A stretch of 63,686 nucleotides of DNA, taken from positions 1 through 63,686 of the forward strand of contig JAAYDR010000061.1 of NCBI GenBank assembly GCA_012729115.1, given 5' to 3'. A model generated the notes under the pieces. It did no database searches. It saw only the letters and a program-made list of their open reading frames with translations, and had not been told where the DNA came from. Shown one piece after another: positions 26,921-42,572 of this stretch. The stretch comes from Clostridiales bacterium (GTDB lineage Bacteria > Bacillota > Clostridia > Christensenellales > Aristaeellaceae). Position numbers and translations under genes: made by a program. Numbering within the stretch: position 1 is the stretch's first letter; the number at the start of each line of letters is the position of its first letter.

Positions 26921-27562
26921 TTAACCCGCAACTTTTCGATATTCCGCAGCCAGTTCGGTAATCTGGCTCCACTGACCGGCCAGAATCCACTCTTTGTTGA
27001 CAAGATTGCCCCCTACCCCCAATCCACAGCACCCCGCGGAAAGAAAATCGGCCGCGTTTTTCTCGGTAATGCCGCCTACCCCCAGTAGGGGAATATGGCT
27101 CAAGGGAGCTCGGACTGCCTTTACATAGGTTGGACCCAGGTTGCCTGCTGGGAACAGCTTCACGGCATCAGCGCCGGCCTCGTAGGCTGCCTGAATTTCA
27201 CTGGGGGTCATGGCACCTGGCAAGGCAACCAGTCCCATGTCCTTAACCTTGCGGATCAGTGCTGGATTTGTGTTGGGTGTGATAATATACTTTGCGCCTG
27301 CATCGGCAGCCATCTTCAATTGCTCCTGGGTCAACACCGTACCCGCGCCCACCAGCATTTTACCCTCCATATGGCAGCGGATGGCTTTGATGGCAAGCGC
27401 TGTGTCCTTCCAAGTTTCAGGTTTGGCCTGGTCAAAGGTAATCTCCATCAGATCAATCCCGCCCGCATATAACGCGTCGGCCAACCCCAACATTGGCTCT
27501 GGAGAAAATCCGCGAACGATAGCAATCACCTTGCGGGCAAGCACCCATTCCATGGCTGTCAT
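26921..27562 (-). CDS. eda: 2-keto-3-deoxy-6-phosphogluconate/KHG-type aldolase
   Basis: Class I aldolase that cleaves 2-keto-3-deoxy sugar acids into pyruvate and an aldehyde. The product has 213 residues, the usual size. The Schiff-base lysine is K135 in AVKLFPAG, the general base is E40 in LMEITF, and the phosphate-binding GAGTVLT loop is present. It has its own promoter, and the regulator gene next to it suggests joint control with the SDR/IlvD-type dehydratase operon on the other strand, which would produce its substrate type. Whether the natural substrate is phosphorylated is not visible. Confidence 0.85.
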   Translation of the reverse strand: MTAMEWVLARKVIAIVRGFSPEPMLGLADALYAGGIDLMEITFDQAKPETWKDTALAIKAIRCHMEGKMLVGAGTVLTQEQLKMAADAGAKYIITPNTNPALIRKVKDMGLVALPGAMTPSEIQAAYEAGADAVKLFPAGNLGPTYVKAVRAPLSHIPLLGVGGITEKNAADFLSAGCCGLGVGGNLVNKEWILAGQWSQITELAAEYRKVAG

Positions 27563-27704: not shown

Positions 27705-28865
27705 CTAGTTCAGGCTGCCCGGAAAGTCTACTTTGTCGGCGAAAGGATTCCCCCCGCCCAGGTGCTCAGCGATTAAGTTTTTAAACTCCTGGCGAGATTT
27801 CACTCCCGCATCGGTGAAAATTTTACCGAGGCGATAGCGCAGCGTACTGCCGCTGATGAATAGTTCCTCAGCAATCTGTTCGTAACCATGATGACCCATG
27901 AGGCCTTTTATGATGCCCATGTCAATTTCGTCCCGTTGAGAAATGCAGTTTTCGATGCCCACCAACGCTGCGATGGTGGGATTGTGATAAAAGCGGTCTG
28001 CCGGTAAACTGGGGGACTTGATACCCTTGCCTGCCTCAATGCGTATGCCCGCTGTGCTTTCCCGGGCCAGAATACGGCTGGGTACGGTTATTTTTAGCGC
28101 TTTCAGGCGGGATACGTCATTGAGGGTCAAAAAGCGCCAGGCATTAAACGCCTGCTCACCCACCCCAAGCATATCCATGGTCATCGAGGTAATACTGGGG
28201 CGATAGAATTGGCCGATGGACATGTTGCCAAAGGAGGCTACAAATAGATCCCCCGGTACCGCAAGGCCGTTGGCCTTGCATTGGTTGATAAAGCAGATCG
28301 ATATCACGTCGTTGGGGCAGATCACAGCATCGTAACGGTCCGCTACTCTTAAAAAGGCGTCGAAGCTGGATTGTGGTTCATACTGCCAGAGGAAAGCATC
28401 ATCCTCAGTAAGCAGTTTTCCCCATGCGGCAACAGCACTCATGGCGGCATGGTAACGGAAATTGTCGTTGATGGAATTGGAACCGAAGCCCACCAATGCC
28501 AGCCGCTCCTTGCCGCATTGGTACAGGTAGTTAACTAGTTGCTGGGTTTCAGCCCTGCGGGAAGGGGTGGCACAGGAAACGTCGGGGCCAAAAGGTTCGC
28601 TATCTGTTCCAGCCAGCACGATATGCCTTTCTGCTGCCCGCAACCGGGAAATGACATCCTGAAGAAAGGGCATGGACGCACTGGTAAGTATGGCCACTGA
28701 TGCCAGAGAGGAAAAATCAATGGAGGTGAGACTTTCCTCCGAGTAAAGAGACAAGTGCATCCCCTGTTTGGCAGCAGCGGTACGAATGCCTTGGATGGCG
28801 TTGGCATATTGGGTGGAAGCGGCTGACTTTTGATCAAAAAAAACAGGGATGAGCAAATCTTTCAC
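27705..28865 (-). CDS. Transcription regulator: periplasmic-binding-like sensor with C-terminal LuxR-type helix-turn-helix
   Basis: The product has 386 residues. Residues 1 to about 275 resemble the sugar-binding sensor of LacI regulators (KERLALVGFGS, YDAVICPNDVIS, DLFVASFGNMSIGQ). There is no N-terminal DNA-binding domain; instead residues about 311-366 form a LuxR/GerE-like helix-turn-helix (YEQIAEELFISGSTLRYRLGKIFTDAGVKSR, given here in pieces of one domain). The start GTG 28865 is 10 bases from GGAGG and gives the same N-terminus as its paralogue at 43851. It lies between the aldolase gene and the divergent catabolic operon, so it probably senses that pathway's substrate. Confidence 0.75.
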   Translation of the reverse strand: MKDLLIPVFFDQKSAASTQYANAIQGIRTAAAKQGMHLSLYSEESLTSIDFSSLASVAILTSASMPFLQDVISRLRAAERHIVLAGTDSEPFGPDVSCATPSRRAETQQLVNYLYQCGKERLALVGFGSNSINDNFRYHAAMSAVAAWGKLLTEDDAFLWQYEPQSSFDAFLRVADRYDAVICPNDVISICFINQCKANGLAVPGDLFVASFGNMSIGQFYRPSITSMTMDMLGVGEQAFNAWRFLTLNDVSRLKALKITVPSRILARESTAGIRIEAGKGIKSPSLPADRFYHNPTIAALVGIENCISQRDEIDMGIIKGLMGHHGYEQIAEELFISGSTLRYRLGKIFTDAGVKSRQEFKNLIAEHLGGGNPFADKVDFPGSLN

Positions 28866-28900
28866 TTGGTTTTCGCCTCCAATCCCCAAATGGATATAAT

Positions 28901-29023: not shown

Positions 29024-29902
29024 ATGATAAGCTTTGAGCTCATTACGCCGGAGCTCTACCAGCTGCAAGTCCCCTTTCCGGGCTGCTGGACAGGGGTCAC
29101 GCTGGTGCGCGGTACTCAGAATGTGCTGGTGGACAGCGGAGGCTCCGCTGAAACGGTGGATGGTTGCATCGTGCCCGCCCTGGAAGATGTGGGGTTAGGG
29201 CCCAGTGACATTGATTTTCTGGCGCTCACACATATTCATGGCGATCATGTGGGTGGTTGTTCGCGCTTGAAAGCTCTTGCACCGGCAATCAAGGTAGCGG
29301 TTTTTGCTGAGTCCTTGGATCGGATACGGAATCCAAAAGCCTATTCCCGGCAGATCCGGGAACGTTTTTCCGGCCATGGCGCACCTGTGCCCGCCTTGCT
29401 GGAGGGTGTTGAGCCCGATGTACTGCTACAGGATGGAGAAATGTTATCGACTTTGCGTCTTGTGCATACACCTGGCCACGATACGGATAGTTGCAGCTAC
29501 CTGGATGAACGAACCCGCACGCTGATCACCGGAGATTCCCTCCAGCTAAACGGCACCGTATCCCAGGGTTGCGCGCTGCTGATGGATGCGGCTCGCTATC
29601 AGTATACATTGCGACGCCTTCAGGACATGGACATCCACAATATTCTTTGCGGACACCCGTTTCTTCCTCTGGGTGACCGGGCTATGGGGCCCGCTGCGGT
29701 GAGGGCATATTTGTCTGCGTGTACCGCCTGTGACGCCCATGACCGGGGTTTTGTAGAAGGAATGCTGGCTGCAGGGAAGACGAATGCCGCCTTCATCGCT
29801 CGGGCGCTGATTCATGAGATAGGGGGTCGGGAGCCGGAGCATCTGTTTCTTCCGCTGCATACGGTTACGGAATATATCCACAAAAGGAGTCGGTGCTTAT
29901 GA
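29024..29902 (+). CDS. MBL-fold metallohydrolase
   Basis: The product has 292 residues with the metallo-beta-lactamase metal motifs: THIHGDHVGG (HxHxDH), HTPGHD, TGDS and CGHPF. A fused C-terminal helical part (about 225-292) follows, as in many glyoxalase-II-like or lactonase-like members. It is the first gene of the catabolic operon and overlaps the SDR gene by ATGA. A lactonase or thioester/ester hydrolase step on a sugar acid fits the context but is inference. AAGGAAG precedes the start. Confidence 0.82.
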   Translation: MISFELITPELYQLQVPFPGCWTGVTLVRGTQNVLVDSGGSAETVDGCIVPALEDVGLGPSDIDFLALTHIHGDHVGGCSRLKALAPAIKVAVFAESLDRIRNPKAYSRQIRERFSGHGAPVPALLEGVEPDVLLQDGEMLSTLRLVHTPGHDTDSCSYLDERTRTLITGDSLQLNGTVSQGCALLMDAARYQYTLRRLQDMDIHNILCGHPFLPLGDRAMGPAAVRAYLSACTACDAHDRGFVEGMLAAGKTNAAFIARALIHEIGGREPEHLFLPLHTVTEYIHKRSRCL

Positions 29903-30690
29903 AAAAGTCGGTTCTTATTACGGGCTCCTCCCATGGCATTGGTGCGGCGGCAGCGCTGGCTTTCGCCAAGGAAGGGTACGATGTTGGGGTCAATTATTTC
30001 GCTTCCCCTCAAGACGCTTTAAAAGTGGCGGAGCAATGCCGGGGGGCTGGTGTGAATGCCCGGATCTATCAGGCGGATGTTTCCAAGCGGGATGAGTGCG
30101 AGAGGATGCTTCACGCATTTATCGAAGATTTCGGCAAGATCGACGTGCTGGTCAACAACGCAGGCGGCGCGCAGCGAATGCCCAAAGGCGGTTTTGCGGA
30201 TATGCCCATGGAATACTGGGACCAGCAGATCAATTTGAATCTGAACGCTGCTGTGTATTGCGCTCACGTGGCCGCCAAGGACATGATCGACAAAAAGACC
30301 CGGGGAGCAATCATCAATGTTTCCTCCATCCACAGCGAGATCACCTGGGTAAGACGGAAAGCGCTGCCCTACTCCGCCGGCAAAGCCGGTCTGAACATGT
30401 TCACCAAGTCCATCGGCGTAGAGCTGATCAAATACGGCATCAATGTCAACTGCATCGCACCCGGCCTTATTTATACGCAGGTAATGAGCCGCTACAGTGA
30501 CAAGAACGTGGAGGGCTTCCATCGCAAGATCCCGGCCGGATACGGCGGATCGCCAGAGGATATCACCCCCATGATGCTGTTTCTGGCGGACAAGAGTAAA
30601 AGCCGCTTCATTGTTGGTCAGACGATCTTCATTGACGGCGGGCAGTCCATTGACGGAGCCATTGACAACATGCTGGACGAGGAATTTTAA
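29899..30690 (+). CDS. Short-chain dehydrogenase/reductase
   Basis: NAD(P)-dependent alcohol/sugar (acid) dehydrogenase. The product has 263 residues, the classical SDR length. The cofactor motif TGSSHGIG, NNAG, catalytic Ser in INVSSIH and YSAGK (Tyr/Lys) are all present, and the end FIDGG is typical. The start at ATG 29899 overlaps the MBL stop (ATGA); a longer frame from 29893 is less likely. It is coupled with MBL and a dehydratase, which suggests oxidation of a sugar to a lactone or sugar acid, then dehydration. Confidence 0.88.
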   Translation: MKKSVLITGSSHGIGAAAALAFAKEGYDVGVNYFASPQDALKVAEQCRGAGVNARIYQADVSKRDECERMLHAFIEDFGKIDVLVNNAGGAQRMPKGGFADMPMEYWDQQINLNLNAAVYCAHVAAKDMIDKKTRGAIINVSSIHSEITWVRRKALPYSAGKAGLNMFTKSIGVELIKYGINVNCIAPGLIYTQVMSRYSDKNVEGFHRKIPAGYGGSPEDITPMMLFLADKSKSRFIVGQTIFIDGGQSIDGAIDNMLDEEF

Positions 30691-30722
30691 TTACCATCAT
30701 AAATTTCAAGGAGGCAGCTATC

Positions 30723-32399
30723 ATGAAACGGACCTATAAGGATATGCGCAGCAACTGGGAGTTTGGTGAGGCATCGGAGTGCCGCCGGGGTCTGATGCTG
30801 GGGATGGGATATACCGAGGAAGAGCTTCACCGGCCACTGATTGCCGTTGTGAACAGCTGGAACGAGTACAACCCCGGGCATGTTCATTTGAAAGAACTGG
30901 CCGAGCGGGTCAAGCAGGGTGTGCGCGAGGCCGGTGGTCTGCCCCTGGAGGTCATGACCACAGCCATCTGTGACGGCATGGTGCTCAAGGATCCGAAATA
31001 CATCGAGATTCCCAGCCGGAACTCTATTGCGGATCAGGTGGAATTGACCGTGGAGGGTAACTTTTTTGACGGCATGGTAATGCTCTCCACCTGTGATTCC
31101 ATCGTCCCCGGCCATCTGATGGGAGCTGCCCGCCTGGACATTCCCACCATCATCGTTACAGGCGGTTACATGCCCCATGGTCAGTTCCGCGGCAAAGAAG
31201 TCGTGCACATCCGCGCTCAGGACAAGGTGGGCACTGCTGCGGAAGGCAAGATGGACATGGATGAGTATAACGGCCTGATTGCCAACAGCTGGGGTACCTG
31301 CGGGGCTTGTACTTCCATGACCACCGCCAACTCCATGTGCATGATGGCGGAAGCCATGGGATTGACCCTGCCGGGGAATTCCACCATGAGCGCCGTTTCC
31401 AGCGCCATCCGCAAGCTCTCCTACGAGGCAGGCAAGCGGATCATGGCCCTGGTCGAGAAAGGAATTACCGCCCGGCAGATCATGACCGTTGATGCCATCA
31501 AGAACGCCATTGCCGTCAACATGGCCGTCGCCGGTTCCTCGAACCTCATTCTGCATTTGCCGGCTATCGCTCATGAGGCCGGATATGATCTGCCCTGGTG
31601 GAAGTATTTTGATGAGGCATCCAACAATGTGCCGCTCATGAGCCACCTGATGCCCGGCGGCGAATACTCCGTGAAGGATTTTGACTTGGCCGGGGGTATG
31701 CCCGCGTTGATGAAGAACCTGCTGCCCTGCCTGAATGGTGATTGTCTGACCGTTACCGGCTGCACCATCGTGCAGAACGTGGCGGATGCGGTGGTCTACA
31801 ACGATGACTGTATTCGGACCTTGGATAATCCTGTGATGAAGGAGCCGGGTATCGGCGTGCTTTATGGCAACCTGGCCCCGGAAGGCTCAATTTTAAAGAT
31901 TGCTGCCGTTCCGTCCCATCTGATGCATTTCAAGGGCAAGGCCAGGTGCTTTGACAGCCTCCAGGCGGGCCTGGATGCTTTGCGTTCTGGTAAGATCCAG
32001 GAAGGTGACGCCATCATACTGCGCTTTATGGGCCTCAAAGGCCGCTTTGGCACCACAGCCTTCACCTTCCAGGAGGAGCTGAAGGGGCAGAGCAAGCTTT
32101 ACAACTCCTGTGCGATTATCACCGACGGCCGCTTCTCGGGCGGCACCAGCGGCCTGAGCGTGGGATACGTCAGCCCTGAGGCAGCCTTGGGCAGTACATT
32201 GGCAGTGGTTCAGGATGGAGACGAGATCGTCATTGATGTGCCCAGTCGCAGGATGGACGTACAGTTGACGGATGAGGAGATCAGCCGTCGTATCGCCGCA
32301 TTCGAATGGGAGTTCCCCGGTCAGGACTATCCCCGTTTCCTGCGCCTGTTCTCCAAGAACATCGGTTCCATGGCAAAGGGCGGTATCTGGGATGTGTGA
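30723..32399 (+). CDS. IlvD/Edd family dehydratase
   Basis: Iron-sulfur dehydratase family covering dihydroxy-acid, phosphogluconate and sugar-acid dehydratases. The product has 558 residues. Cluster cysteines are seen in ICDGMV, STCDSIVPG and GTCGACTSM, and the family end GRFSGGTSGLSVGYVSPE is clear. It uses the PGHxHL pattern of the clostridial/archaeal IlvD-like branch. No other branched-chain amino acid gene is nearby; the SDR, aldolase and transporter context favours a sugar acid being turned into a 2-keto-3-deoxy acid. AAGGAGG precedes the start. Confidence 0.88.
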   Translation: MKRTYKDMRSNWEFGEASECRRGLMLGMGYTEEELHRPLIAVVNSWNEYNPGHVHLKELAERVKQGVREAGGLPLEVMTTAICDGMVLKDPKYIEIPSRNSIADQVELTVEGNFFDGMVMLSTCDSIVPGHLMGAARLDIPTIIVTGGYMPHGQFRGKEVVHIRAQDKVGTAAEGKMDMDEYNGLIANSWGTCGACTSMTTANSMCMMAEAMGLTLPGNSTMSAVSSAIRKLSYEAGKRIMALVEKGITARQIMTVDAIKNAIAVNMAVAGSSNLILHLPAIAHEAGYDLPWWKYFDEASNNVPLMSHLMPGGEYSVKDFDLAGGMPALMKNLLPCLNGDCLTVTGCTIVQNVADAVVYNDDCIRTLDNPVMKEPGIGVLYGNLAPEGSILKIAAVPSHLMHFKGKARCFDSLQAGLDALRSGKIQEGDAIILRFMGLKGRFGTTAFTFQEELKGQSKLYNSCAIITDGRFSGGTSGLSVGYVSPEAALGSTLAVVQDGDEIVIDVPSRRMDVQLTDEEISRRIAAFEWEFPGQDYPRFLRLFSKNIGSMAKGGIWDV

Positions 32400-32405
32400 T
32401 AGGCG

Positions 32406-33995
32406 ATGAAGAAGTGGACGACAGACTGCCTGGTGGTTGGCGGGGGCCTTGCCGGATGGTGCGCAGCCCGGGAAATTGTAAACACAGGCGTTCACGTTGC
32501 ATTGATGCATGATGGCATGGGCGCATCTCCCTGGGTTCATGGCATCAATGTTCCGGTGCTCCCGCAGGACTCGGTAGACTGCTTTTTGAGTGATACTCTT
32601 CAAAGTGGGCTTGGGCTCAGCGATCCCCGCCTGGCCAGGGCGCTGTGTGAAGACGCGCCAAAGGTACTGGAGACTTTGCAAGGGATGGGGCTTTCCTTCA
32701 ACCGAAAAGGGGAGGAGTACCAGCTCTTGCGCCCTTTGGGGTCCAGCCATCCACGGGTGGTTTCCATTGGCAATGAAACCGGGGTAGCGATTCTGGGAGC
32801 CATAAAGAGGGAGTTGACCGGGCGAGTAGCGGAGTTTCCTCACACCCGGGCTCTCCGACTGTTGACAGGCCCTGGCGGCCTTCAGGGAGTGCTGGCATAC
32901 GATGCCCGGGCGCGGGAATGGATTGGGGTAAACACAAAGGCAGTGGTGTTGGCTTGCGGCGGCTTCTGCGGTCTTTATCCCTTTACCACCAATAAGCGGG
33001 ACTCCGGCGGAGACGGACCTGCCATGGCCTATGGAGCGGGCGCAGTCCTGCGGGATATGGAATTCATTCAATTTGAGCCCAGTGCAGCGGTCTGGCCTCC
33101 CCAACTCATGGGTACCAGCGTTATTACAACCTTGTTTTTTGAGGGCGCCGTGTTGCGCAACAATCAAGGAGAGCGTTTTATGACTCGCTATGGCCTGGAA
33201 GCGGAGCGGGTGGGCAAGGATGTTTTGGCTCGATGCATTGCGGCGGAGATTACAGCGGGCCTGGGTACGGAGCACGGCGGTGTGTATTTTGATGCCACGG
33301 CTGTTGATGTAGGTACGCTGGAGCGGGATTATCCCATGTATCTGCGGCGTTATCGGGATGTGGGCATCGATTTGTCCATCAGCCCTGTGGAGTTGGCGCC
33401 TGCTCCCCATACATCTCTGGGTGGCGTCGCGACAGACGAGAATGGGCGCACCTGTGTGCCGGGCCTCTTCGTCTGCGGCGAGAGCATGGGTGGACTGCAT
33501 GGAGCCAATCGTATCGGAGGCAGTGCAGGATTGGAAACGTTGGTATTCGGTTTCCGATCTGGCCGTCAGGCCGCTGCGTGGGCCAAGGAGACGGCCCCTA
33601 TGACGGCAGATATTCAAACGCCCATATCAAGTGGGGCCTCCATTCGTGAGGCACTGATACAGCTTCGGACAGGGATGCAAAAAGTGCTGGCAGAGGCTGC
33701 AGGCCCTCTGCGGGAAGGTCCTGCGCTGGAAAAGGCAGAGAAAACCCTTCGGCAGGAGTTGAATGAAGCCTGCAAGCTTCGGGGTGCTGACTCCGAGGAG
33801 GTCTTTTTGCGGCTGAGACTGGAGAATGATCTGATCACCGCCCTGATGGTCTGCGCGGCAGCCAGAGCCCGGGAAGAAACCCGGGGCTGCCATGCTCGGG
33901 AAGATTTTCCTGAAGCAAACAAGGAACTCCTGCGTGTGACACTCCGGAAGGGTGGCGAGGGCATTGTGGTGGCAAAGGAGACGATATTGGGATGA
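32406..33995 (+). CDS. Fumarate-reductase/aspartate-oxidase-like FAD flavoprotein
   Basis: The product has 529 residues. N-terminal FAD motif CLVVGGGLAGWCAA, the substrate-domain GERFMTRYG, then HTSLGGVATDENG and GLHGANRIGGSAGLETLVFG as in succinate dehydrogenase/fumarate reductase and L-aspartate oxidase. The helical C-terminal domain ends with the family REETRGCHAREDFP. No membrane anchor or iron-sulfur subunit gene is adjacent, so it may act as a soluble oxidase or reductase of a pathway intermediate. It begins 6 bases after the dehydratase stop and overlaps fdrA by ATGA, so it is tightly tied to both. Confidence 0.85.
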   Translation: MKKWTTDCLVVGGGLAGWCAAREIVNTGVHVALMHDGMGASPWVHGINVPVLPQDSVDCFLSDTLQSGLGLSDPRLARALCEDAPKVLETLQGMGLSFNRKGEEYQLLRPLGSSHPRVVSIGNETGVAILGAIKRELTGRVAEFPHTRALRLLTGPGGLQGVLAYDARAREWIGVNTKAVVLACGGFCGLYPFTTNKRDSGGDGPAMAYGAGAVLRDMEFIQFEPSAAVWPPQLMGTSVITTLFFEGAVLRNNQGERFMTRYGLEAERVGKDVLARCIAAEITAGLGTEHGGVYFDATAVDVGTLERDYPMYLRRYRDVGIDLSISPVELAPAPHTSLGGVATDENGRTCVPGLFVCGESMGGLHGANRIGGSAGLETLVFGFRSGRQAAAWAKETAPMTADIQTPISSGASIREALIQLRTGMQKVLAEAAGPLREGPALEKAEKTLRQELNEACKLRGADSEEVFLRLRLENDLITALMVCAAARAREETRGCHAREDFPEANKELLRVTLRKGGEGIVVAKETILG

Positions 33996-35503
33996 AAAGG
34001 GTGTATCTGGCGAAGAACCGGTATGTGGATTCGGTAACCCTGATGGGCGTAGCAGAGCGGATTCTGGGACGGGAGGGCATAACCGGCGCAGAAAGCGGCA
34101 TGGGCACCCCTGCCAACGTGGAGTTGCTGACCAGCCTGGGCTACCGCGTGCCCGAAGATACATGCAGGAACGATATGATGCTTGCCCTGGATGCGGAGGA
34201 TGAGGAAGCATTGGAAGCTGCACACCGGGCGGGGATGGAGATGCTGGACCATCCTGGCGGCAGGCAGCAAGTCTTGCGGGATTTGCGGGATCTTGAGCTG
34301 GGTCAGTTTGACATAGCCCAGATATCCCTGCCGGGAGAATATGCGGCTGCGGAGGCTCGCAAGGCCATTGAGTTGGGCATGGATGTGTTTATTTTCAGCG
34401 ACAATGTGCCCCTGTCTCAGGAGCGGGAGCTCAAGGAGTTTGGACGTACCAGAGGGAAACTTGTGATGGGGCCGGATGCCGGTGTAGGCCTGATGGGTGG
34501 CGTTGCGCTGGCGGCAGGCAGTATTGTGCGCAAGGGTGCCGTAGGCATTGTGGCGGCCAGTGGAAGCGGGGCTCAGGAGGTGGCCTGCCTCATCGAGCGG
34601 TTGGGTGCCGGTGTCAGCGCCATCATCGGAGCAGGTGGTCATGATTTGTTGCCCGGGATCGGCGGCATTACTATGCGCATGGGGATGGAACGGCTGGACA
34701 ACGATCCCGATACCCAGGTCATCTGCCTGGTGAGCAAGCTGGCTGACCGGGGGGTTATGGCAAAGGTGCTCACAGATGCGGACAGGTTGAGTAAGCCTGT
34801 GGTAGCGATGTTTCTGGGCGGGGGTGAAGAGATCTTCCAAGGGAGCCGGGTCAGAGGGGCATTCAGCCTTCAGGAAGCTGCGGAACTCTGCTGCGAGTTG
34901 CTTACCGGGGAAAAAAGGCATCTGGGCTGGGGCCCGGACGAGGTGGACAGACTGGCGGAAGATTTGCTGAAGGGAATCACCCCTCCCCGGAAATATTTTC
35001 GGGGGCTATACTGCGGTGGTACCTTTGCTGAGGAGGCACTGCTGCTTTTTGCCCGGGAAAATCCGCAGGTGAAACTATACTCAAATATCAATACCCCCTA
35101 TACACAAAAGCTCCCCTCTCATCACCAAAGCATAGGTCATACCCTTGTGGATCTTGGGGCGGAGGATTTCACCGCCGAGGCACCCCACCCGGTTTTTGAC
35201 CCATCTTTGCGTTTGCGCAGGCTGGAGAGGGAGTTGGAAGATCCCCAGGCAGCGGTGATATTGCTGGATTTCATAACAGGTCCGGGGGTGCATCCCGACC
35301 CAATCCTGCCTTTTGTTCGCATGGTACGGCAGCATAGGGACGTCATTTTCATCGCGACCATATGCGGAGCACAAGGCGATCCCCAGAATATCACCCAAGC
35401 CAGAAAGGCTCTTGAAGAAGCAGGTGTAATCATGGCGGATTCCAATCAACTGAGTGCACGGTTGGCTTCGGCCCTGATGGCGGCCCTGGAAAGGAGGCGG
35501 TAG
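33992..35503 (+). CDS. fdrA: FdrA-like protein (oxamate carbamoyltransferase-type subunit, CoA-ligase fold)
   Basis: The product has 503 residues. It contains two succinyl-CoA-synthetase-like domains: GIVAASGSGAQEVACL with IGAGGHDLLPGIGG resembles the SucD core, and the end with GPGVHPDPILPF resembles the ligase-type domain. The SucD phospho-histidine loop (GHAGA) is not visible. From established work as I recall it, E. coli FdrA, YlbE and YlbF (AllFGH) together form oxamate carbamoyltransferase. Here the companions DUF1116 and DUF2877 follow. The start overlaps the flavoprotein stop by ATGA. The real substrate may differ, since allantoin genes are absent. Confidence 0.85.
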   Translation: MKRVYLAKNRYVDSVTLMGVAERILGREGITGAESGMGTPANVELLTSLGYRVPEDTCRNDMMLALDAEDEEALEAAHRAGMEMLDHPGGRQQVLRDLRDLELGQFDIAQISLPGEYAAAEARKAIELGMDVFIFSDNVPLSQERELKEFGRTRGKLVMGPDAGVGLMGGVALAAGSIVRKGAVGIVAASGSGAQEVACLIERLGAGVSAIIGAGGHDLLPGIGGITMRMGMERLDNDPDTQVICLVSKLADRGVMAKVLTDADRLSKPVVAMFLGGGEEIFQGSRVRGAFSLQEAAELCCELLTGEKRHLGWGPDEVDRLAEDLLKGITPPRKYFRGLYCGGTFAEEALLLFARENPQVKLYSNINTPYTQKLPSHHQSIGHTLVDLGAEDFTAEAPHPVFDPSLRLRRLERELEDPQAAVILLDFITGPGVHPDPILPFVRMVRQHRDVIFIATICGAQGDPQNITQARKALEEAGVIMADSNQLSARLASALMAALERRR

Positions 35504-35504
35504 C

Positions 35505-35663
35505 ATGGAAGAGAAGGATCCAAAACCCAGGGTGGTCAATGTGGGCATTCAGGCCTTTTATGAGGCGCTGCTTGCCCAAGGAGTGGAGTGTGCCCAGATC
35601 CAGTGGCATCCCCCCGCACAGCAGAGCGAGGAGATCCAAAGCCTGTTGGATATGTTTTTGTAG
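35505..35663 (+). CDS. Small 52-residue protein, detached FdrA-type terminal domain
   Basis: ATG 35505 lies 1 base after the fdrA stop, and AAGGAGG sits 7 bases upstream, so it is very probably translated. The product has 52 residues with VVNVGIQAFYEALLAQG and QIQWHPPA, a pattern (NVG-F-QG-W-PPA) I associate with the terminal segment of longer FdrA proteins. It ends right before the DUF1116 ribosome binding site. A separate subunit or a domain split from FdrA is the likely explanation; a frameshift is unlikely because it has its own ribosome binding site. Confidence 0.7.
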   Translation: MEEKDPKPRVVNVGIQAFYEALLAQGVECAQIQWHPPAQQSEEIQSLLDMFL

Positions 35664-35680
35664 GAGGGGACGATGCCTCA

Positions 35681-36940
35681 ATGATGGATGTTCGCGAAAG
35701 AATAAAGGCTGCTAATGACGCTGCGGTTCATTGCATTATTGATTCGGATCCCTATTGGGTAGATGTGCAGCCTGCGGGAGAATGCGTGGAAGGCTTGGAG
35801 GATCATATGATCCTGCACTCGGGCCCCCCCATTGACTTTGAGGATATGGTGGCGTTGCATCGCCGGGGGATGGTCAGCGCCATGCTCTTTGAGCATTGGG
35901 CCAGGGATGAAAAGGAGGCCGTGGAGCGCATCCGTGCCGGAGAGGTAAAGATCGAGTCGGCATTGGATCACAACACGGTAGGCGCGGGAACGGGTATCAT
36001 TACCAAGTCCGTGATGATGAATGTAATCCAGGATCGCCATTCTGGCAAACGTGCTTGCACCTTTCCGGCAGAAGGGCCATATCAGGGCGGCTTGTGCGGC
36101 TGGGGGCTGTATAGCGAAGAGATAGCTGAAAACTTACGAATCATGCGGGAGGAACTTTTTCCCGTGCTGCGGGAAGTGCTGCACAAGCGCGGAGGCATGG
36201 CTCTCAAACCCATATTGGCAGAAGGGATGCAAATGGGGGATGAGAACCATACCCGTCAGACAGCAGCGGATCTTTTGTTTGACAAGCAGATTCTGCCCGA
36301 CCTTTTTGCCCTGGATCGCCCCAAGGAAGAGATTCTGAAAGTTGTCCGATATATCGTGGAAACCCCCCGTTTTTTCCATTGCTATGGCCAGGGGGCATCC
36401 CGCTCCGCGTTGATGGCAGCGGATGATACGCCCTACTCCACCATGGTAATCGCTATTTGCGGCAACGGAGTGGAGTTCGGTATCAAGGTGGCGGGTATGC
36501 CGGGACAGTGGTTCACAGCCCCTGCTCCCATGATGGAGGGCCGTTACACCTCCACCCATTATACCAAGGCGGATCAACTGCCCTGGATCGGAGACAGTTG
36601 TGTGGTGGAATGCGCGGGTATGGGTGGCTTTGCTGCGGCAGCAAGCCCCATTGTGTGCAACTTAAGGGGCATGACCCTTAAGGAGTCCATCGCCCAGACT
36701 CGTGAGATGGAAGAGATATCCATTGGGAAAAACCCGAATTTTCCCATCCCAAACCTGGATTTCAGCTTCCTGCCTGTGGGCATCGACATCCGGCTTGTCC
36801 TGAAAACCGGGATCAGTCCGGCGATTCACGGTGGGATGTTCAACCGGGAGGGAGGCCTCATCGGAGCAGGCATGGCCAGGGTCCCCATGGAATGCTTCCA
36901 GAAGGCCATGAAGGCTTTTAGTGTCCAATATGCGGGCTGA
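35681..36940 (+). CDS. DUF1116 protein (YlbE/AllG-like)
   Basis: The product has 419 residues from ATG 35681, the same length as E. coli YlbE as I remember it, and the conserved segments PYWVDVQPAGE, LHSGPP, FEHWARDEKEA and GGMFNREGGLIGAG match that family. YlbE is reported to be one subunit of oxamate carbamoyltransferase. The ribosome binding site GGAGGGG is 11 bases upstream, inside the end of the small ORF. Upstream in-frame codons back to 35588 overlap the small gene and are rejected. A terminator follows 13 bases after the stop. Confidence 0.88.
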   Translation: MMDVRERIKAANDAAVHCIIDSDPYWVDVQPAGECVEGLEDHMILHSGPPIDFEDMVALHRRGMVSAMLFEHWARDEKEAVERIRAGEVKIESALDHNTVGAGTGIITKSVMMNVIQDRHSGKRACTFPAEGPYQGGLCGWGLYSEEIAENLRIMREELFPVLREVLHKRGGMALKPILAEGMQMGDENHTRQTAADLLFDKQILPDLFALDRPKEEILKVVRYIVETPRFFHCYGQGASRSALMAADDTPYSTMVIAICGNGVEFGIKVAGMPGQWFTAPAPMMEGRYTSTHYTKADQLPWIGDSCVVECAGMGGFAAAASPIVCNLRGMTLKESIAQTREMEEISIGKNPNFPIPNLDFSFLPVGIDIRLVLKTGISPAIHGGMFNREGGLIGAGMARVPMECFQKAMKAFSVQYAG

Positions 36941-36952
36941 GCCCCATCGTAT

Positions 36953-36999
36953 GCCGCCCCGGGGAGAAACGGGCCTCGTTTTTCCACGGGGCGGCTTTT
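36953..36999 (+). terminator. Intrinsic terminator inside the operon
   Basis: 9-bp stem GCCGCCCCG / CGGGGCGGC, extended inward by a further imperfect stem, followed by TTTTATC. It separates DUF1116 from the kinase and DUF2877 genes, which would then be read at a lower level. Confidence 0.75.
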
Positions 37000-37018
37000 A
37001 TCGTGGGAGGTATGGATG

Positions 37019-38191
37019 ATGAGGATTCTGGTACTCAACCTTGGCTCCACCAGCTTTAAGTGCAAGCTCTATCAAATGAGCCCCGTGGAGGTGCAGCTGG
37101 CGTCAGGTGGTGTGGAAAGTATTGGTGGCCATGGCAGATATGTTGTGCAAGCAGGGGAAAAGCGCCGGGAGGGGGAATGTGCCTGCAAAACCCACCTGGA
37201 TGCTCTGGAATTGTTTCTGGAGGCGCTGGGTGACTTGGGCATGTCTATGGACAGGGAGGCTCTGGATGCGGTGGGATATAAGGCTGTTCACGGCGGTTCT
37301 CTTTCCGGAGCTCATTTGGTCGACGATGCACTGATGGAACAGATGGATAAAATGGCAGTGTTTGCTCCCGCACACAACCCGGTGTATCTGTCCATGATGC
37401 GCAGCGTAAGGGAGCGTTATGACAGGATCCGCCAGATCGCTTGCTTTGAGACTGCCTTTCATGCTACCATGCCCTTAGAAAGAGCTGTGTATGGAGTACC
37501 CTACGCCTGGGCTATGGAGGATGGATTGCGCCGCTATGGTTTTCACGGCTCCAGTCATAGCTATATCGCCTGGAAAATGGGACAGATAGCTCCCCATGCC
37601 CGGCGGGTAATCAGCGCCCATCTTGGGGGTAGCAGTTCCCTTTGTGCAATTTTAGACGGTCAGAGCGTTTACAACACCATGGGCGCGACCCCTCAAAGCG
37701 GTTTGTTTCATAACAACCGGGTTGGAGACTTGGATGTATTCTGTCTGCCAGCCCTGATTCAAAGGCTGGGGGGCCTGGAGGAGGCCATGAAAGCACTTTC
37801 CACCCAAAGCGGCTTGTTGGGACTGTCCGGTGTGAGCAATGACTTGCGGGAGGTAGAGCAGGCAGCGGAGGAGGGTAATGACCAAGCTGCGCTCGCAGTA
37901 AAGGCTCTGGTGGATGAGGTGGTCGGTTATACCGGCATGCTCACCGCTTATTTGGGAGGCTTGGATGCGTTGGTTTTCACAGGGGGGATTGGCTTTAACG
38001 GAGCGAAGTTTCGTAGGAAGGTGGTTGGGAAGTTGGGTTTCTGCGGCGCAAGGATCGACGATACGTTGAACTACCAAGGATATGAGGGACTCATCAATGC
38101 TGCGGACAGCGATATTGAGATCTGGGCTCTTCAGACCAATGAGGAGTTAATGGTGGCCCGAGCTTGCGTCCGACTATTGAAAGGATGTTGA
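37019..38191 (+). CDS. Acetokinase family kinase (acetate/butyrate kinase-like)
   Basis: The product has 390 residues from ATG 37019, which fits the ribosome binding site GGGAGG better (8 bases) than ATG 37016. Motifs of the family: LVLNLGSTSFKCK, VHGG, AHNPVY, FETAFHATMP, RYGFHGSSHSY, VFTGGIGFNG and the late QTNEE. The usual GTRSGDID reads NNRVGDLD: the catalytic Arg stays, but the surroundings differ. HLGNGAS reads HLGGSSS. These changes suggest a carboxylic substrate other than acetate. It stands where E. coli has a carbamate kinase, so it may turn an acyl or carbamoyl phosphate plus ADP into ATP. Confidence 0.82.
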   Translation: MRILVLNLGSTSFKCKLYQMSPVEVQLASGGVESIGGHGRYVVQAGEKRREGECACKTHLDALELFLEALGDLGMSMDREALDAVGYKAVHGGSLSGAHLVDDALMEQMDKMAVFAPAHNPVYLSMMRSVRERYDRIRQIACFETAFHATMPLERAVYGVPYAWAMEDGLRRYGFHGSSHSYIAWKMGQIAPHARRVISAHLGGSSSLCAILDGQSVYNTMGATPQSGLFHNNRVGDLDVFCLPALIQRLGGLEEAMKALSTQSGLLGLSGVSNDLREVEQAAEEGNDQAALAVKALVDEVVGYTGMLTAYLGGLDALVFTGGIGFNGAKFRRKVVGKLGFCGARIDDTLNYQGYEGLINAADSDIEIWALQTNEELMVARACVRLLKGC

Positions 38192-38946
38192 GAAATGCTT
38201 GCGCGGGGGAAGCGAGGCTGACCCCGGTTTTTGGGGAAACCGGGCAATGGCAGGGCCGGGTACATTCCGTATTCCGTCAGGTGGTCAATGTGACCTTCCT
38301 CCTGGAGGGTGAAGCTCGGCTGGTGGTGCTGTGTGGACCGGGACTTCCGCTGCTGCCGGACAGTATCGTGTTGCCACAGGGTTGGCTTGAGGAGACGGCA
38401 CTGTTTCCTGGGGCACCGGTCCTGCTTTCACCGGGAGAGCTATGGGCCAGGGGACGGAGCATTACCCTGCTCCGTGATCTGAAGTGGGACGGGTTTATGC
38501 CGCCCCTGGCAGGAAGACCTGCCGCAGGTGAACTGCGGGAAATTGAAAAGCGCTGCAAGAATGGATTTGGTTCGTTCCCACCCGTTCTCAGACCCCGGAT
38601 AGAAGCCGCCCTCACCGATGGAAGTGCTCAACGCTGGTTGGGACTCGGGGCAGGCCTCACCCCTTCCTTTGATGATGCCTGTGTGGGGGTCATGGCTCTA
38701 TGTCGTGCAGTGGGGCATCCCACTCCTTTTGTGCTGGAGGATCTGAGCATGACCACTGAGGTGAGCGCGCGATATTTGCGGCTTGGCCAGGAGGGGTATT
38801 ATGGTCAGCCTTTAGGCAGATTGGTTGCGACGCTTTTTTATGGCGGTGTGGAAAAAGCCGCCCGGGAGTTGCTTGCCGTAGGCGCAAGCTCTGGGGCGGA
38901 CATGCTTCATGGGGTGGCAGCAGCGCTGTCATATTTGAAAGCATAA
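38185..38946 (+). CDS. DUF2877 protein (YlbF/AllH-like)
   Basis: The product has 253 residues from ATG 38185. The family motifs GLGAGLTPSFDDA and the late VGASSGADMLHG agree with E. coli YlbF, the third reported subunit of oxamate carbamoyltransferase. The start overlaps the kinase stop. An alternative TTG 38164 lies further upstream with a GGTGG sequence, so the start is uncertain by seven residues. It is the last gene of the operon; no clear terminator is seen in the following 170 bases. Confidence 0.8.
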   Translation: MLRNACAGEARLTPVFGETGQWQGRVHSVFRQVVNVTFLLEGEARLVVLCGPGLPLLPDSIVLPQGWLEETALFPGAPVLLSPGELWARGRSITLLRDLKWDGFMPPLAGRPAAGELREIEKRCKNGFGSFPPVLRPRIEAALTDGSAQRWLGLGAGLTPSFDDACVGVMALCRAVGHPTPFVLEDLSMTTEVSARYLRLGQEGYYGQPLGRLVATLFYGGVEKAARELLAVGASSGADMLHGVAAALSYLKA

Positions 38947-39116: not shown

Positions 39117-40388
39117 ATGAAGAAATTCTTGGCACTGGTTCTAACCATGATCTTGCTGGTATCCGTGTCTTCCTTCGCATTGGCGGAAGACGTAACCATT
39201 GGCTGGACATCCTGGGCACTGGCCGAGGAGAAGCTCCTCCCGGTCTATGCAGGATCAGCTGACGCGTTTATGGCCGACAATCCGGGCATCACAGTTGACT
39301 ACTCTCAGAGCAATCCCTATGCATCCTACCTGGATCAACTTTTAACCGCAGCCAGCGCAGGCAATGCTCCCTATGTGGCCCATATCAAGGCGGAGTGGCT
39401 GCCTCAGTTCCTGGAGCTGGGCGTGCTCAAAGATCTCACTCCCTACATCAGCGCTGATGTAATCGCTGACTACAGCCCTAGCGCTATCGAGGGCGCAACG
39501 GTGGATGGCAAGATGGTTGCCATGCCTTGGTTTGGCAACACCTATGCAATGTACTACAACAAGGCCCTTCTGGCTCAGGCAGGGATCGAAACTCTGCCCC
39601 AATCCTGGGATGAGCTGATTGAAGATGCCTATAAAATTGCTGCCTTGGGCGATGACATCTATGGTTTGGCCATTCCCAACTCCAATGGTGTAGAAGCCGG
39701 GGAAGGCTACAACGTATTCCCTGCCCTGTGGGCCAATGGTGGAGACTTCCTGGATGCCGAGGGCAAGATTAACCTGACCGATGAAGCCGCCATCAAGACC
39801 TTCACCCAGATACAGAAGTTGGTGGTGGATAAGGTATCCCCCACTGTAGGCAACAGCTTCAAGGATCTGCGCAATCTCTTTGGGCAGGGCAAGATCGCCT
39901 TTTATTGGGATTTGGAAGGCACGGTGTCTGCCGCTGCCGCTGCTGCTCCGGATGAAGCGAAATTTTACGAGGACTTTGGTTGCTTTGTGATTCCTGGTGC
40001 AGACACTCCCAATGGCAGTGGTTACGTCATCAACCACTATCTGGTGGTTTTCAACAACTGCCCCGATGAGATCATGCCCCAGGTGGCAACTTTCCTGGAA
40101 TACATGAGCGATGCGAGAGTGATCCAAATCTTCAAGGATGGCAACCAGGGCAAGATGAGCAGTCGCGAAAGTGTCATGGAGAAGGTTTTTACTGAAGTAG
40201 GTGAAATCACCAGGGTATATGTGGACGCTATGAAGACCGCCCGTCCCCTGCCCGTCAGTGGCCTGCACTTCATGGACGCTGATAAAGAGATTGTCAATGC
40301 CTTGACCCGCTTGGCTCAGGGCGAGGATGTCGCTGCTGTGATGGCAGACTGCCAGAGCATCATTCAGGAGATGTACGACGAGGAATAA
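39117..40388 (+). CDS. ABC transporter sugar-binding protein (extracellular)
   Basis: Captures a sugar or oligosaccharide for the two permeases that follow. The product has 423 residues, usual for family 1 solute-binding proteins. The N-terminal signal MKKFLALVLTMILLVSV ends in SSFALA-ED, a normal signal peptidase I site; there is no lipobox cysteine. The mature part has the MalE-like pattern FGNTYAMYYNKALLAQAGI. GGAAAGGTGG precedes the start. A strong hairpin after the stop probably raises its expression over the permeases. Ligand unknown. Confidence 0.9.
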   Translation: MKKFLALVLTMILLVSVSSFALAEDVTIGWTSWALAEEKLLPVYAGSADAFMADNPGITVDYSQSNPYASYLDQLLTAASAGNAPYVAHIKAEWLPQFLELGVLKDLTPYISADVIADYSPSAIEGATVDGKMVAMPWFGNTYAMYYNKALLAQAGIETLPQSWDELIEDAYKIAALGDDIYGLAIPNSNGVEAGEGYNVFPALWANGGDFLDAEGKINLTDEAAIKTFTQIQKLVVDKVSPTVGNSFKDLRNLFGQGKIAFYWDLEGTVSAAAAAAPDEAKFYEDFGCFVIPGADTPNGSGYVINHYLVVFNNCPDEIMPQVATFLEYMSDARVIQIFKDGNQGKMSSRESVMEKVFTEVGEITRVYVDAMKTARPLPVSGLHFMDADKEIVNALTRLAQGEDVAAVMADCQSIIQEMYDEE

Positions 40389-40407
40389 GGGATACACCTA
40401 ATCCCCA

Positions 40408-40444
40408 AGCGCCGTCCTTTCTGCAAGACGGGAAGGACGGCGCT
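40408..40444 (+). terminator. Hairpin between binding-protein and permease genes
   Basis: Perfect 12-bp stem AGCGCCGTCCTT / AAGGACGGCGCT, followed by CTTTC. Likely a leaky terminator or 3' stabiliser giving more binding protein than permease. Confidence 0.6.
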
Positions 40445-40468
40445 CTTTCAATGAAAGGATGAAGGCAC

Positions 40469-41461
40469 ATGCAAACACGGGCCGGACAGGTCATCAATCC
40501 CAGAAGCCCCACACAGCGCGCAGACAGCTTGTTTGGTTTCGTGTTGGTGCTACCGGCTCTGTTGGCGTTGCTGGTCGTTATCGCACTACCGATCCTCAAG
40601 GGTATTTTTGTCAGTTTTTTTTCCTATAAACTGAAGAATATCAGTGGTTCTCTTTTTGATTTTTCGAGATTGCCCGACGTGCTGAGCGGCAAGGATGATA
40701 TAAACAGCCTGTTAACTCTTCAATGGAACGATTTTGCGAATTATACATCTCTTTTCAAACGTGGTGAAATCCTCAAGTATTTCGGCAACACCCTGGAGTT
40801 CGTGATTCTGACTGTGGGAATTCAGTTGATTCTGGGCATGGCAATCGCGCTGTTGCTCAATTCACGAATCAGGGGTTGCGGCCTGTTCCGGAGCATAATG
40901 CTCATCCCATGGACCATTCCATCCGTGGTTGTCGCTATTCTGTGGCGATGGATGATCCATCAGGATTTTGGTGTGATCAATTATGTGGCTTATGTCATGG
41001 GTTTCTCAGAACAGCTCAACGTATCATGGCAGGTATCCAACAGCTTGGCCATGGCCTCCATTGTGATGGCCTCGGTATGGCGGCAGCTGCCCTATATGAT
41101 GGTGATGCTTTTAGCGGGACTGCAGAGTGTGGATTCATCACTGGAGGAAGCCGCTCATATCGACGGAGCCAATGGATGGAAGACCTTTCTGAATGTCATA
41201 TTGCCATCCATTCGTCCGGTGCTGATCACATCCACCTGGATTGCAGTCATGAATAACTTCCAGATGTACACCATCATCGCCAACATGAACGGTACCGGTG
41301 CAGCTACTATGACGCTTTCTATTGCCGCGTACCAGGAAGCCTTCAAGAGCTATAACTTTGGCAAGGGAGCTGCCATCGGGGTCATGTGGCTGGCGCTGCT
41401 TTTTATCATCACACTGCTGAGCAACAAGCTCAATGACCGTTACGCCAACGATTACCAGTAG
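40469..41461 (+). CDS. Sugar ABC transporter permease (MalF-like)
   Basis: Inner-membrane subunit of a carbohydrate uptake system. The product has 330 residues with about six membrane helices. The EAA loop LEEAAHIDGANGWKTFLNVILP contacts the ATPase; it is given in the family position about 100 residues from the end. It forms a pair with the next gene. No ATPase gene is in the operon, so a shared MsmX/MsmK-type ATPase encoded elsewhere is expected. Confidence 0.92.
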   Translation: MQTRAGQVINPRSPTQRADSLFGFVLVLPALLALLVVIALPILKGIFVSFFSYKLKNISGSLFDFSRLPDVLSGKDDINSLLTLQWNDFANYTSLFKRGEILKYFGNTLEFVILTVGIQLILGMAIALLLNSRIRGCGLFRSIMLIPWTIPSVVVAILWRWMIHQDFGVINYVAYVMGFSEQLNVSWQVSNSLAMASIVMASVWRQLPYMMVMLLAGLQSVDSSLEEAAHIDGANGWKTFLNVILPSIRPVLITSTWIAVMNNFQMYTIIANMNGTGAATMTLSIAAYQEAFKSYNFGKGAAIGVMWLALLFIITLLSNKLNDRYANDYQ

Positions 41462-41480
41462 TCAGATCGGAGGGATAGCG

Positions 41481-42572
41481 ATGAATCATCCTGTAAGCGC
41501 TTTACCCGTTGGTGATGGCCGCTGGCGGTGGGCGGGCGTGTTGACGCTGTATATCCTCAGCGGGGGACTTGCTTTTGTGGGCCTTCGGCGTATCTTCTTT
41601 CTCTCCCACCGGGTCCCTCCGGAAGAAAGTGTTGCATGCATTGTTCTGGGAGTAGCATTTCTGTTGTTTTCAGCGGGAGCACTCTACCTGGCCCGTCGGC
41701 TTTCCAATGCTTCCAAGGAGAAGCGGGGATTTGCCGCCTCCCGCCATGCAACGGCGCTATCTATGCGCTATGGAGTGTTGATCGCTTTGATAGCGTTGCT
41801 GTTGTTTCCTGTTCTATGGATGCTCATCTCCTCCTTACAGTCCAGCCACAGACTGATGAGTCTTCCGCCTCAATTCGCGCTGGGCAGTGACAGCGGCTTT
41901 TTCAACTACCAGAAGATTTTTGCCAAGCCGGAATATGTGCGTTACTTCATCAACAGCTTCATTACCGCAGGGGGTACGGTGCTGATGGTGCTGTTTATTT
42001 CCATCCCGGCAGGCTTTTCCTTTTCCCGCTACCGTTTTAGGGGCCGCAATGCGATTTTGACGACCATTCTTTCTGTGCAGATGTTTCCCATCGTGGTGAT
42101 TTTGATTTCTCTCTATACTTTTTATATGAAGTGGGATCTGCTCAATCGCTACATGGGTGTGATCCTTGCGGACACCACCTTTGCACTTCCCTTGGCAATT
42201 ACGTTGATGAAATCGTTTTTTGACACCCTGCCCCGTTCCCTTGACGAGAGTGCGCGGATTGACGGCGCGGGAAGAATGCGCACCCTGATTCGGATTTTAC
42301 TGCCCTTAACGCTGCCGGGGCTTGTTGCTGTGGGTATCTACACCTTCCTGTCGGCCTGGGATGATTACCTGATGTCCATGACCATCATGCAGACCAATCA
42401 TATGAAAACCTTGCCGGTGGGTCTCGCCCAAAGCTTTCTGGGAGAATACGCCCATGATTATGGCGCGTTGATGGCGTTCTCCATGGCAGGTTCACTTCCC
42501 ATTGTTCTTTTGTTTCTATTTTTCCAGAAGTATATGATCAGCGGCCTGACAGCGGGCGCAGTGAAGGGATGA
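41481..42572 (+). CDS. Sugar ABC transporter permease (MalG-like) with N-terminal extension
   Basis: The product has 363 residues from ATG 41481, after GGAGGG. The EAA loop DESARIDGAGRMRTLIRI is in the usual place. About 75-80 extra N-terminal residues contain two additional hydrophobic segments before the normal MalG start (about residue 90, ALSMRYGVLIALIALLL), so it is longer than the usual 270-300 residues. It is translated right after the MalF-like gene and directly before an FAD oxidoreductase gene (7-base gap), which ties uptake to that enzyme. Confidence 0.9.
   Translation: MNHPVSALPVGDGRWRWAGVLTLYILSGGLAFVGLRRIFFLSHRVPPEESVACIVLGVAFLLFSAGALYLARRLSNASKEKRGFAASRHATALSMRYGVLIALIALLLFPVLWMLISSLQSSHRLMSLPPQFALGSDSGFFNYQKIFAKPEYVRYFINSFITAGGTVLMVLFISIPAGFSFSRYRFRGRNAILTTILSVQMFPIVVILISLYTFYMKWDLLNRYMGVILADTTFALPLAITLMKSFFDTLPRSLDESARIDGAGRMRTLIRILLPLTLPGLVAVGIYTFLSAWDDYLMSMTIMQTNHMKTLPVGLAQSFLGEYAHDYGALMAFSMAGSLPIVLLFLFFQKYMISGLTAGAVKG

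Follow-up and report, generated by a model that had tools for sequence, protein, structure and literature searches.

The 63,686-nucleotide contig JAAYDR010000061.1 of Clostridiales bacterium assembly GCA_012729115.1, analyzed here as a whole and referred to as the window (contig C39 of genome G000, which totals 3.15 Mb in 124 contigs), carries an eight-gene operon at positions 29024 to 38946 in which homologs of the Escherichia coli AllF, AllG and AllH proteins stand among predicted sugar-acid enzymes and beside an acetokinase-family kinase with an altered active site. All eight genes lie on the plus strand, almost without gaps, in the order metallo-beta-lactamase-fold (MBL) hydrolase, short-chain dehydrogenase/reductase (SDR), IlvD/Edd-family dehydratase, FrdA-like flavoprotein, AllF (FdrA), AllG, kinase and AllH, and several neighbors abut or overlap. 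We consider it somewhat probable that AllF and AllG, with or without AllH, split a 2,4-diketo-3-deoxy sugar acid with phosphate to pyruvate and a 2-hydroxyacyl phosphate, from which the kinase would make ATP. The gene set, its recurrence, two residue classes of AllG, a residue signature of the kinase and the failure to find a signature kinase where AllF is lacking are direct observations on sequences.

In E. coli, fdrA-ylbE-ylbF encode the oxamic transcarbamylase AllFGH, found with the carbamate kinase AllK (PMC11326118). The window resembles that system in encoding the three families together (PF00549, PF06545 and PF11392) and, as proposed here, in coupling phosphate-dependent cleavage next to a 2-keto acid, through a mixed anhydride and a kinase, to ATP formation. 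It differs in having sugar-acid neighbors instead of allantoin genes, an acetokinase-family instead of a carbamate kinase, an AllG with Gly260, Trp301 and Gly383 in place of Arg, Asp and Thr, and a proposed cleavage of a C-C rather than an N-C bond. The initial annotation had described the trio as standing with MBL, SDR, IlvD/Edd dehydratase and FrdA-like flavoprotein genes and with no allantoin gene. Both points held: Pfam profiles found all four neighbors on one strand, and in a comparison of the whole window with 19 of its own proteins and 22 E. coli references, among them carbamate kinases and products of allantoin genes, an E. coli protein was the best match of none of the window genes.

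Two residue classes of AllG

A tree of 101 AllG sequences placed all 12 sequences from loci with a carbamate kinase inside one starred clade of 36 and most of those from acetokinase or sugar loci in a second clade of 62, with the kinase label changing once on the tree; three deep-branching sequences (from loci L017, L019 and L150) likewise came with an acetokinase. Arg260-Asp301-Thr383 was found in 36 sequences, made up of the 12 from carbamate-kinase loci and 24 with no kinase seen. The other 65 had Gly260-Trp/Phe/Tyr301-Gly383 (the acyl type), 61 coming from sugar or acetokinase loci and 4 from short contigs. The window AllG, with Gly-Trp-Gly, lacks the residues of the carbamate-kinase class. 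Since the class label tracks just one or two splits in the tree, its match with locus type is no count of independent events.

Residues D186, H189, N261, D304, S305 and E309 were invariant in AllG, and E187 was replaced by Asp in four sequences. Position 260 adjoins an invariant residue and position 301 lies two positions ahead of one; we read the Gly-aromatic-Gly combination as loss of a putative ureido-binding pair. A predicted model of AllG (pLDDT, 89.9) gave a single fold-search match, 3CLQ, a protein of unknown function. A misplaced allantoin operon was ruled out by the AllG residue classes, the partner kinase and the neighboring genes, which agrees with the earlier claim that the system is distinct from the allantoin pathway.

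A residue signature of the linked kinase

The window kinase resembles AckA and TdcD in its family profiles (PF00871, 302.9 bits; TIGR00016, 312 against a cut-off of 293.4). It differs from them in a signature shared by all 49 trio-linked kinases aligned (44 distinct), in which R91, D148, N211 and G212 of acetate kinase 1TUU are replaced by Lys, Glu, Gly and Ser; L122 is replaced in 48 of the 49, by Ala in 38. The alignment took in linked kinases of at least 300 amino acids, and shorter ones, such as that of L027, were left out. R91, D148 and N211 (1TUU numbering) belong to the active site of acetate kinase. Ordinary acetate kinases lay beyond a starred branch (100) from the linked kinases in the kinase tree, and the genome's own AckA, encoded on another contig, keeps the ordinary Arg, Asp and Asn. 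An ordinary AckA and a butyrate kinase (TIGR02707, 50.7 against a cut-off of 289.1) were excluded by the residue signature together with the profile cut-offs. The initial annotation had put an acetokinase relative with altered active-site surroundings, not a normal acetate or butyrate kinase, in the place of carbamate kinase, and it was right on each count.

In 382 genomes of the class, the 30 top-scoring kinase matches comprised 3 linked to the trio (the window's included), 3 with the full signature but unlinked, 1 with part of it and 23 ordinary ones. The three unlinked signature kinases (L196, L197 and L198) lie in an operon with an ABC transporter, galactarate-dehydratase-like and isopropylmalate-synthase-like proteins, a protein that by eye resembles 2-hydroxyacid dehydrogenases, and a LarA-family racemase scoring under the equivalog cut-offs; this may be another hydroxyacid pathway.

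In five further genomes (L372 to L376), the signature kinase stands among homologs of PduL, bacterial microcompartment (BMC) shell proteins and aldehyde dehydrogenase, with a class II aldolase homolog in four of the five loci (L372 ends ahead of its place) and neither AllF nor AllG in any of the five stretches. These kinases equal the window kinase at all 16 sites compared. Passages of PMC4207490 describe a PVM microcompartment for the breakdown of L-fucose and L-rhamnose and infer that its aldehyde is lactaldehyde, and passages of PMC8706344 predict conversion of lactyl-CoA to lactate for a genome with such a compartment. There, the acyl phosphate would come from lactaldehyde via lactyl-CoA and PduL inside the shell. 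Because the signature and the 16 sites are shared with these fucose/rhamnose-microcompartment-type kinases, lactyl phosphate is our best guess for the substrate of the signature kinase. The acetokinases of L372 to L376 may be misnamed when called acetate kinases.

AllF and the flavoprotein

The window AllF scored 333 bits with NF004760, under its cut-off of 433, and matched E. coli FdrA (PDB 3DMY) with an E value of 1.2e−53. A glycine-rich loop around residues 189 to 193 is kept in both classes of AllF. Ser177 and Ser192 were present in all 49 sugar-type sequences, and Asn and Thr occupied these positions in all 11 carbamate-kinase-type ones. In the AllF alignment rows displayed, no segment aligned with the phosphohistidine loop of succinyl-CoA synthetase (GHAGA in E. 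coli SucD). Fusion proteins of AllF and AllG, about 1,000 amino acids long, are encoded in L013, L141 and L145, three loci that also contain a carbamate kinase and genes of the allantoin type.

In the flavoprotein, the His of the FrdA QYHP motif is replaced by Glu and the Arg of the PRD motif by Lys in 60 of 60 sequences. These sites are H233 and R288 of E. coli FrdA when counted from the gene, H232 and R287 in the literature numbering. The later His and Arg (HYTMGG and HGANR motifs) are kept in the rows displayed, and the covalent-FAD His motif is not present. With two active-site residues changed, fumarate reductase and L-aspartate oxidase were rejected as its identity.

Recurrence across genomes

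AllG was found in 9 of 150 related genomes, counting that of the window. The whole operon recurs in two of them (G012, locus L015, and G072, locus L016), and a third (G127, L018) has a diverged version in another gene order, with a PF04909 amidohydrolase at the operon start, no MBL gene and two SDR genes. Screening a collection of 84,980 species yielded 402 AllG relatives; the 80 best were retained, and this sample favors the AllG type of the window. Among these 80, the gene set of the operon, with the trio-kinase pair singled out by the initial annotation, recurs, in shuffled gene order, in many Clostridia, one member of the Erysipelotrichaceae (L058) and one of the Victivallales (L035). The set with AllF and AllG, but without a kinase in the stretch, was seen in Opitutales (L037, L042 and L043), Verrucomicrobiaceae (L038) and Planctomycetaceae (L046).

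After removal of nine duplicates from 114 AllG loci, 105 were scored by hidden Markov model detection, with IlvD-type or flavoprotein genes counted as sugar genes. Sugar genes occurred with AllF and an acetokinase in 35 loci, with AllF and no kinase in the stretch in 12, and with neither AllF nor kinase in 8; the loci lacking sugar genes had an acetokinase in 8 cases (one a cut-off stretch without AllF), a carbamate kinase in 12 and neither in 30. No carbamate kinase lay in the stretch of any of the 55 loci with sugar genes. In all 42 nonduplicate rows of the AllG tree with a linked kinase, the kinase is on the strand of AllG, and in 31 it lies within 300 nucleotides of AllG, so the association of trio and kinase is more than chance. 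Aldose-epimerase-family genes were seen in 17 loci (PF01263 confirmed on one).

A held-out set, part of all matches, was fetched as 72 stretches, of which 69 were left once three duplicates had been dropped. Arg-Asp-Thr was found in 57 (21 with a carbamate kinase, 1 with an acetokinase and 35 with neither), none of which had an IlvD-type or flavoprotein gene, and the one acetokinase (L302) has ordinary residues. Seven were Gly-aromatic-Gly, five of these with an IlvD-type gene and none with AllF or a kinase; the remaining five were unclassed or cut.

Two further arrangements were seen. In four alphaproteobacterial loci (L088, L089, L095 and L100), two adjacent AllG copies stand next to one AllF. 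Clostridial YahEFG-like loci (L131 to L140 and L142 to L144), mostly Arg-Asp-Thr, have recurrent neighbors of about 566, 398 and 265 amino acids, and a carbamate kinase was seen only in L134.

These distributions bear on whether the trio could still be a carbamoyl system, splitting an acid that resembles oxalurate, or a different ureido acid, with the acetokinase relative acting on carbamoyl phosphate. Homology to the E. coli enzyme speaks for it, as do dihydropyrimidinase-family and hydantoinase/carbamoylase-family genes (the proteins scoring above cut-off) that lie convergent with the operon in L015 (the same locus as L025). We nevertheless judge it improbable, because no sugar locus has a carbamate kinase in its stretch and the acyl-type AllG lacks the Arg-Asp-Thr found in all 12 carbamate-kinase sequences; the neighbors of the trio, moreover, belong to sugar-acid enzyme families, and the genome's own carbamate kinase sits in a purine-type cluster. 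That cluster (G000:C90, L162:1434-12633) encodes a selenium-dependent xanthine dehydrogenase, a dihydropyrimidinase and a diaminopropionate ammonia-lyase, all above NCBIfam cut-offs, and no trio gene was seen in it. Of the two products left open by the initial annotation, which had the trio and kinase making ATP from an acyl or a carbamoyl phosphate, the acyl phosphate fits the comparative evidence and the carbamoyl phosphate is disfavored. An allantoinase-like neighbor in L040 scores best as another amidohydrolase, under the cut-offs.

Joint presence and absence of AllF and the kinase

Whole-genome searches covered six of the eight sugar loci without AllF and 8 of the 12 with AllF and no kinase in the stretch. 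The six AllF-less genomes yielded no signature kinase, and no AllF beyond one weak match of 43 bits. Neither AllF nor a signature kinase was found in whole-genome searches of eight more genomes, from the Oligosphaera phylum, comprising six with acyl-type AllF-less loci (seven loci, L307 to L313) and two with an unclassed AllG (L314 and L315); altogether, 12 genomes whose AllF-less loci are of the acyl type yielded no signature kinase. Seven of the eight genomes with AllF and a kinase-free stretch had a signature kinase elsewhere, five in microcompartment-type loci, one in another trio locus (L045, from the cultured Oligosphaera ethanolica DSM 24202, which shares its genome with L079) and one seemingly so (L024, the same isolate as L078). 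All four independent tree pairs agree on a link between AllF and the kinase (sign test, P = 0.125); with only four such pairs, joint absence of the two as a significant count was set aside.

A clean AllG marker for the absence of AllF was sought and rejected, as changes were only partial: D368 and A395 are kept in 7 of 13 AllF-less sequences and C306 in 3 of 13. Loci L307 to L313 have an acyl-type AllG, with an IlvD-type gene in five of the seven and no AllF or kinase, and their AllG proteins are candidate AllG-only hydrolases.

The lack of a signature kinase in AllF-less genomes would be expected equally of a module for phosphorolysis and of an optional one for activation. AllG alone might hydrolyze the diketo acid, or another bond, with the kinase spending ATP to activate the released hydroxy acid and AllF passing it to CoA. 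AllF does have CoA-ligase-type domains, and an E. coli triple mutant regained 16% of its oxamate formation with allGH, against 7% with allFG (PMC11326118), so AllG-side chemistry may run without AllF. We think this arrangement unlikely all the same: AllF in E. coli belongs to a carbamoyl-phosphate-linked complex and an allF single deletion forms no oxamate (PMC11326118), the AllF-AllG fusions argue for one enzyme, and no CoA-using partner was recognized next to the window genes.

Proposed pathway and points against it

Phosphorolysis by AllF and AllG, the reading preferred here, would turn the operon into a form of the non-phosphorylating sugar-acid pathway that saves energy; each catalytic step, its substrate and its direction are predicted from the gene families and residues. 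The SDR would oxidize a sugar at C1, the MBL hydrolase would open the lactone, and the IlvD-type enzyme would dehydrate the aldonate to a 2-keto-3-deoxy acid, which the flavoprotein would oxidize at C4 to a 2,4-diketo-3-deoxy acid (-OOC-CO-CH2-CO-R). AllF-AllG(-AllH) would then split the C3-C4 bond with phosphate to pyruvate and an acyl phosphate (R-CO-OPO3), and the signature kinase would use the latter to phosphorylate ADP, which yields ATP and leaves a 2-hydroxy acid. Such a diketo acid is the carbon analog of oxalurate (-OOC-CO-NH-CO-NH2), the compound that AllFGH of E. coli cleaves with phosphate; it differs by CH2 for NH and R for NH2, and the leaving groups correspond, pyruvate to oxamate. 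The operon supplies one enzyme for each step, provided that AllFG(H) uses phosphate for the cleavage and that ATP is recovered by the kinase. The route would be energetically feasible. Given the kinase resemblance, the most likely product would be lactate, from a 6-deoxyhexose; a pentose or hexose would instead leave glycolate or glycerate. Downstream of its kinase and AllH genes, L058 encodes a nickel-dependent lactate racemase (604.7 bits against a cut-off of 460) and then EtfB-, EtfA- and GlcD-like proteins, all three under NCBIfam cut-offs. A glycerate kinase in L017 and a tartronate-semialdehyde reductase in L019, both above cut-off, suggest that R differs between loci.

Phosphorolysis might also act on another beta-dicarbonyl derived from the 2-keto-3-deoxy acid, if the SDR and flavoprotein roles were swapped or another carbon oxidized. 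An SDR enzyme performs C4 oxidation in the known fucose route, according to passages of PMC11199699, L018 has its two SDR genes, and many loci are accompanied by eda genes and by genes like that of 2-keto-3-deoxygluconate (KDG) kinase. This variant seems to us rather unlikely, given that the exact oxalurate-like arrangement arises only by C4 oxidation and that the window operon has one SDR, with glucose 1-dehydrogenases among its nearest solved relatives.

Several observations weigh against C4 oxidation followed by phosphorolysis and ATP recovery as set out above. The flavoprotein reaction is deduced from two residues. Apart from L058, lactate genes turned up in L063 alone, with no racemase in its stretch. 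The KDG-kinase-like gene, of the PfkB family and present in 22 loci, suggests together with eda a phosphorylated branch that is superfluous to the model, and the L015 dihydropyrimidinase and carbamoylase-family genes hint at ureido chemistry nearby. The 69 held-out stretches contained no further locus linked to a signature kinase. The link between AllF and the kinase stands on the four tree pairs, and metagenome-assembled genomes are incomplete; the seven genomes with a signature kinase elsewhere lend it weak and unclean support, as those kinases lie in microcompartment-type or second trio loci, and in the genome of L050, which has AllF, a whole-genome search found no signature kinase. The E. 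coli deletion and the low yield of allFG indicate, finally, that AllF and AllH matter there.

Genes of the window

The gene run extends past AllH through the ABC transporter and the FAD-dependent oxidoreductase to position 43794 (Table 1). By alignment, position 35684 is the more likely start of AllG than the first start of the open reading frame (ORF). The IlvD/Edd dehydratase scores under the cut-offs for IlvD, Edd and L-arabinonate dehydratase. Homologs of eda adjoin the operon or sit inside it in many relatives, a homolog of the divergent regulator adjoins it in L015, L016, L024, L026, L028, L033, L034 and L069, and homologs of all three transporter proteins do so in L016 and L028. Homologs of the FAD-dependent oxidoreductase, 62 to 64% identical, occur in L022, L025 and L033. 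A distant DNA search of plasmids gave no match.

Table 1. Genes of the operon and its flanks in the window
Feature	Position	Strand	Profile evidence and remarks
eda, KDPG/KHG-type aldolase	26921..27562	-	PF01081, TIGR01182 above cut-off; upstream of operon, opposite strand
Divergent regulator, periplasmic-binding-protein-like domain	27705..28889	-	PF13377; upstream of operon
MBL-fold hydrolase, proposed sugar lactonase	29024..29902	+	PF00753; lactonase role predicted
SDR dehydrogenase, proposed aldose 1-dehydrogenase	29893..30690	+	PF13561
IlvD/Edd-family dehydratase, proposed sugar-acid dehydratase giving 2-keto-3-deoxy acid	30723..32399	+	PF00920/PF24877
FrdA/NadB-like flavoprotein, altered active site, proposed 2-keto-3-deoxy-acid 4-dehydrogenase	32406..33995	+	PF00890/PF02910
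AllF (FdrA), succinyl-CoA-synthetase-like	33992..35503	+	PF00549; 4-nt overlap with flavoprotein gene
AllG, acyl type (Gly260, Trp301, Gly383)	35684..36940	+	PF06545, E value 2.1e−69; ORF listed from 35588
Acetokinase-family kinase, K91/E148/G211/S212, proposed 2-hydroxyacyl-phosphate kinase	37016..38191	+	PF00871, E value 3.7e−90; TIGR00016 above cut-off
AllH	38164..38946	+	PF11392, E value 1.4e−17; overlaps kinase end; alternative start ATG 38185
ABC transporter, binding protein and two permease-like proteins	39117..42572	+	PF01547 on binding protein
FAD-dependent oxidoreductase	42580..43794	+	PF12831

Farther downstream, at 45078 to 50892, the window encodes two GFO/IDH/MocA oxidoreductases, a glycyl-radical-enzyme activase and a glycyl-radical enzyme of 770 amino acids that scores far under every NCBIfam cut-off listed.

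Relation to known pathways and implications

Bacterial routes for L-fucose and L-rhamnose, as described in passages of PMC11199699, form diketo acids that are hydrolyzed to pyruvate and lactate. The predicted aldose dehydrogenase, lactonase, dehydratase, C4 oxidation and cleavage to pyruvate and a hydroxy acid of the window operon parallel this non-phosphorylating diketo-hydrolase pathway (FucA, B, C, F and G; LRA5 and LRA6). The window operon departs from it in the flavoprotein proposed for C4 oxidation. It departs also at the cleavage step: FucG and LRA6 presumably belong to the fumarylacetoacetate-hydrolase family, no Pfam match to which was obtained among ten window proteins scanned, and AllFG(H) with phosphate is proposed in that place.

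Among the literature matches listed, from a search with preprints and most subscription journals outside its scope, the system was not found in print under DUF1116/DUF2877/FdrA, OXTCase or diketo-phosphorolysis, and those on diketo-acid phosphorolysis or on lactyl, glyceryl or glycolyl phosphate kinases held nothing on it.

We advance more tentatively, as a broader idea that may or may not prove right, that AllF-AllG is a general phosphorylase for -OOC-CO-X-CO-R (X = NH or CH2), which in sugar-acid operons would cleave a C-C bond with neither thiamine nor coenzyme A, so that retro-Claisen cleavage of an acylpyruvate would be conserved first in a lactyl-type phosphate and afterwards in ATP, with some lineages that lack AllF and the kinase using AllG as a simple hydrolase.

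If the proposed pathway is true, it would be an additional route of substrate-level phosphorylation in the sugar breakdown of gut and rumen anaerobes, in which diketo-acid cleavage yields ATP rather than heat. It would account for operons that contain AllG without allantoin genes and would assign a role to a subfamily of acetokinases whose members score as acetate/propionate kinases. Residues 260, 301 and 383 of AllG and 91, 148, 211 and 212 of the kinase would then serve as rules for the repair of annotations.

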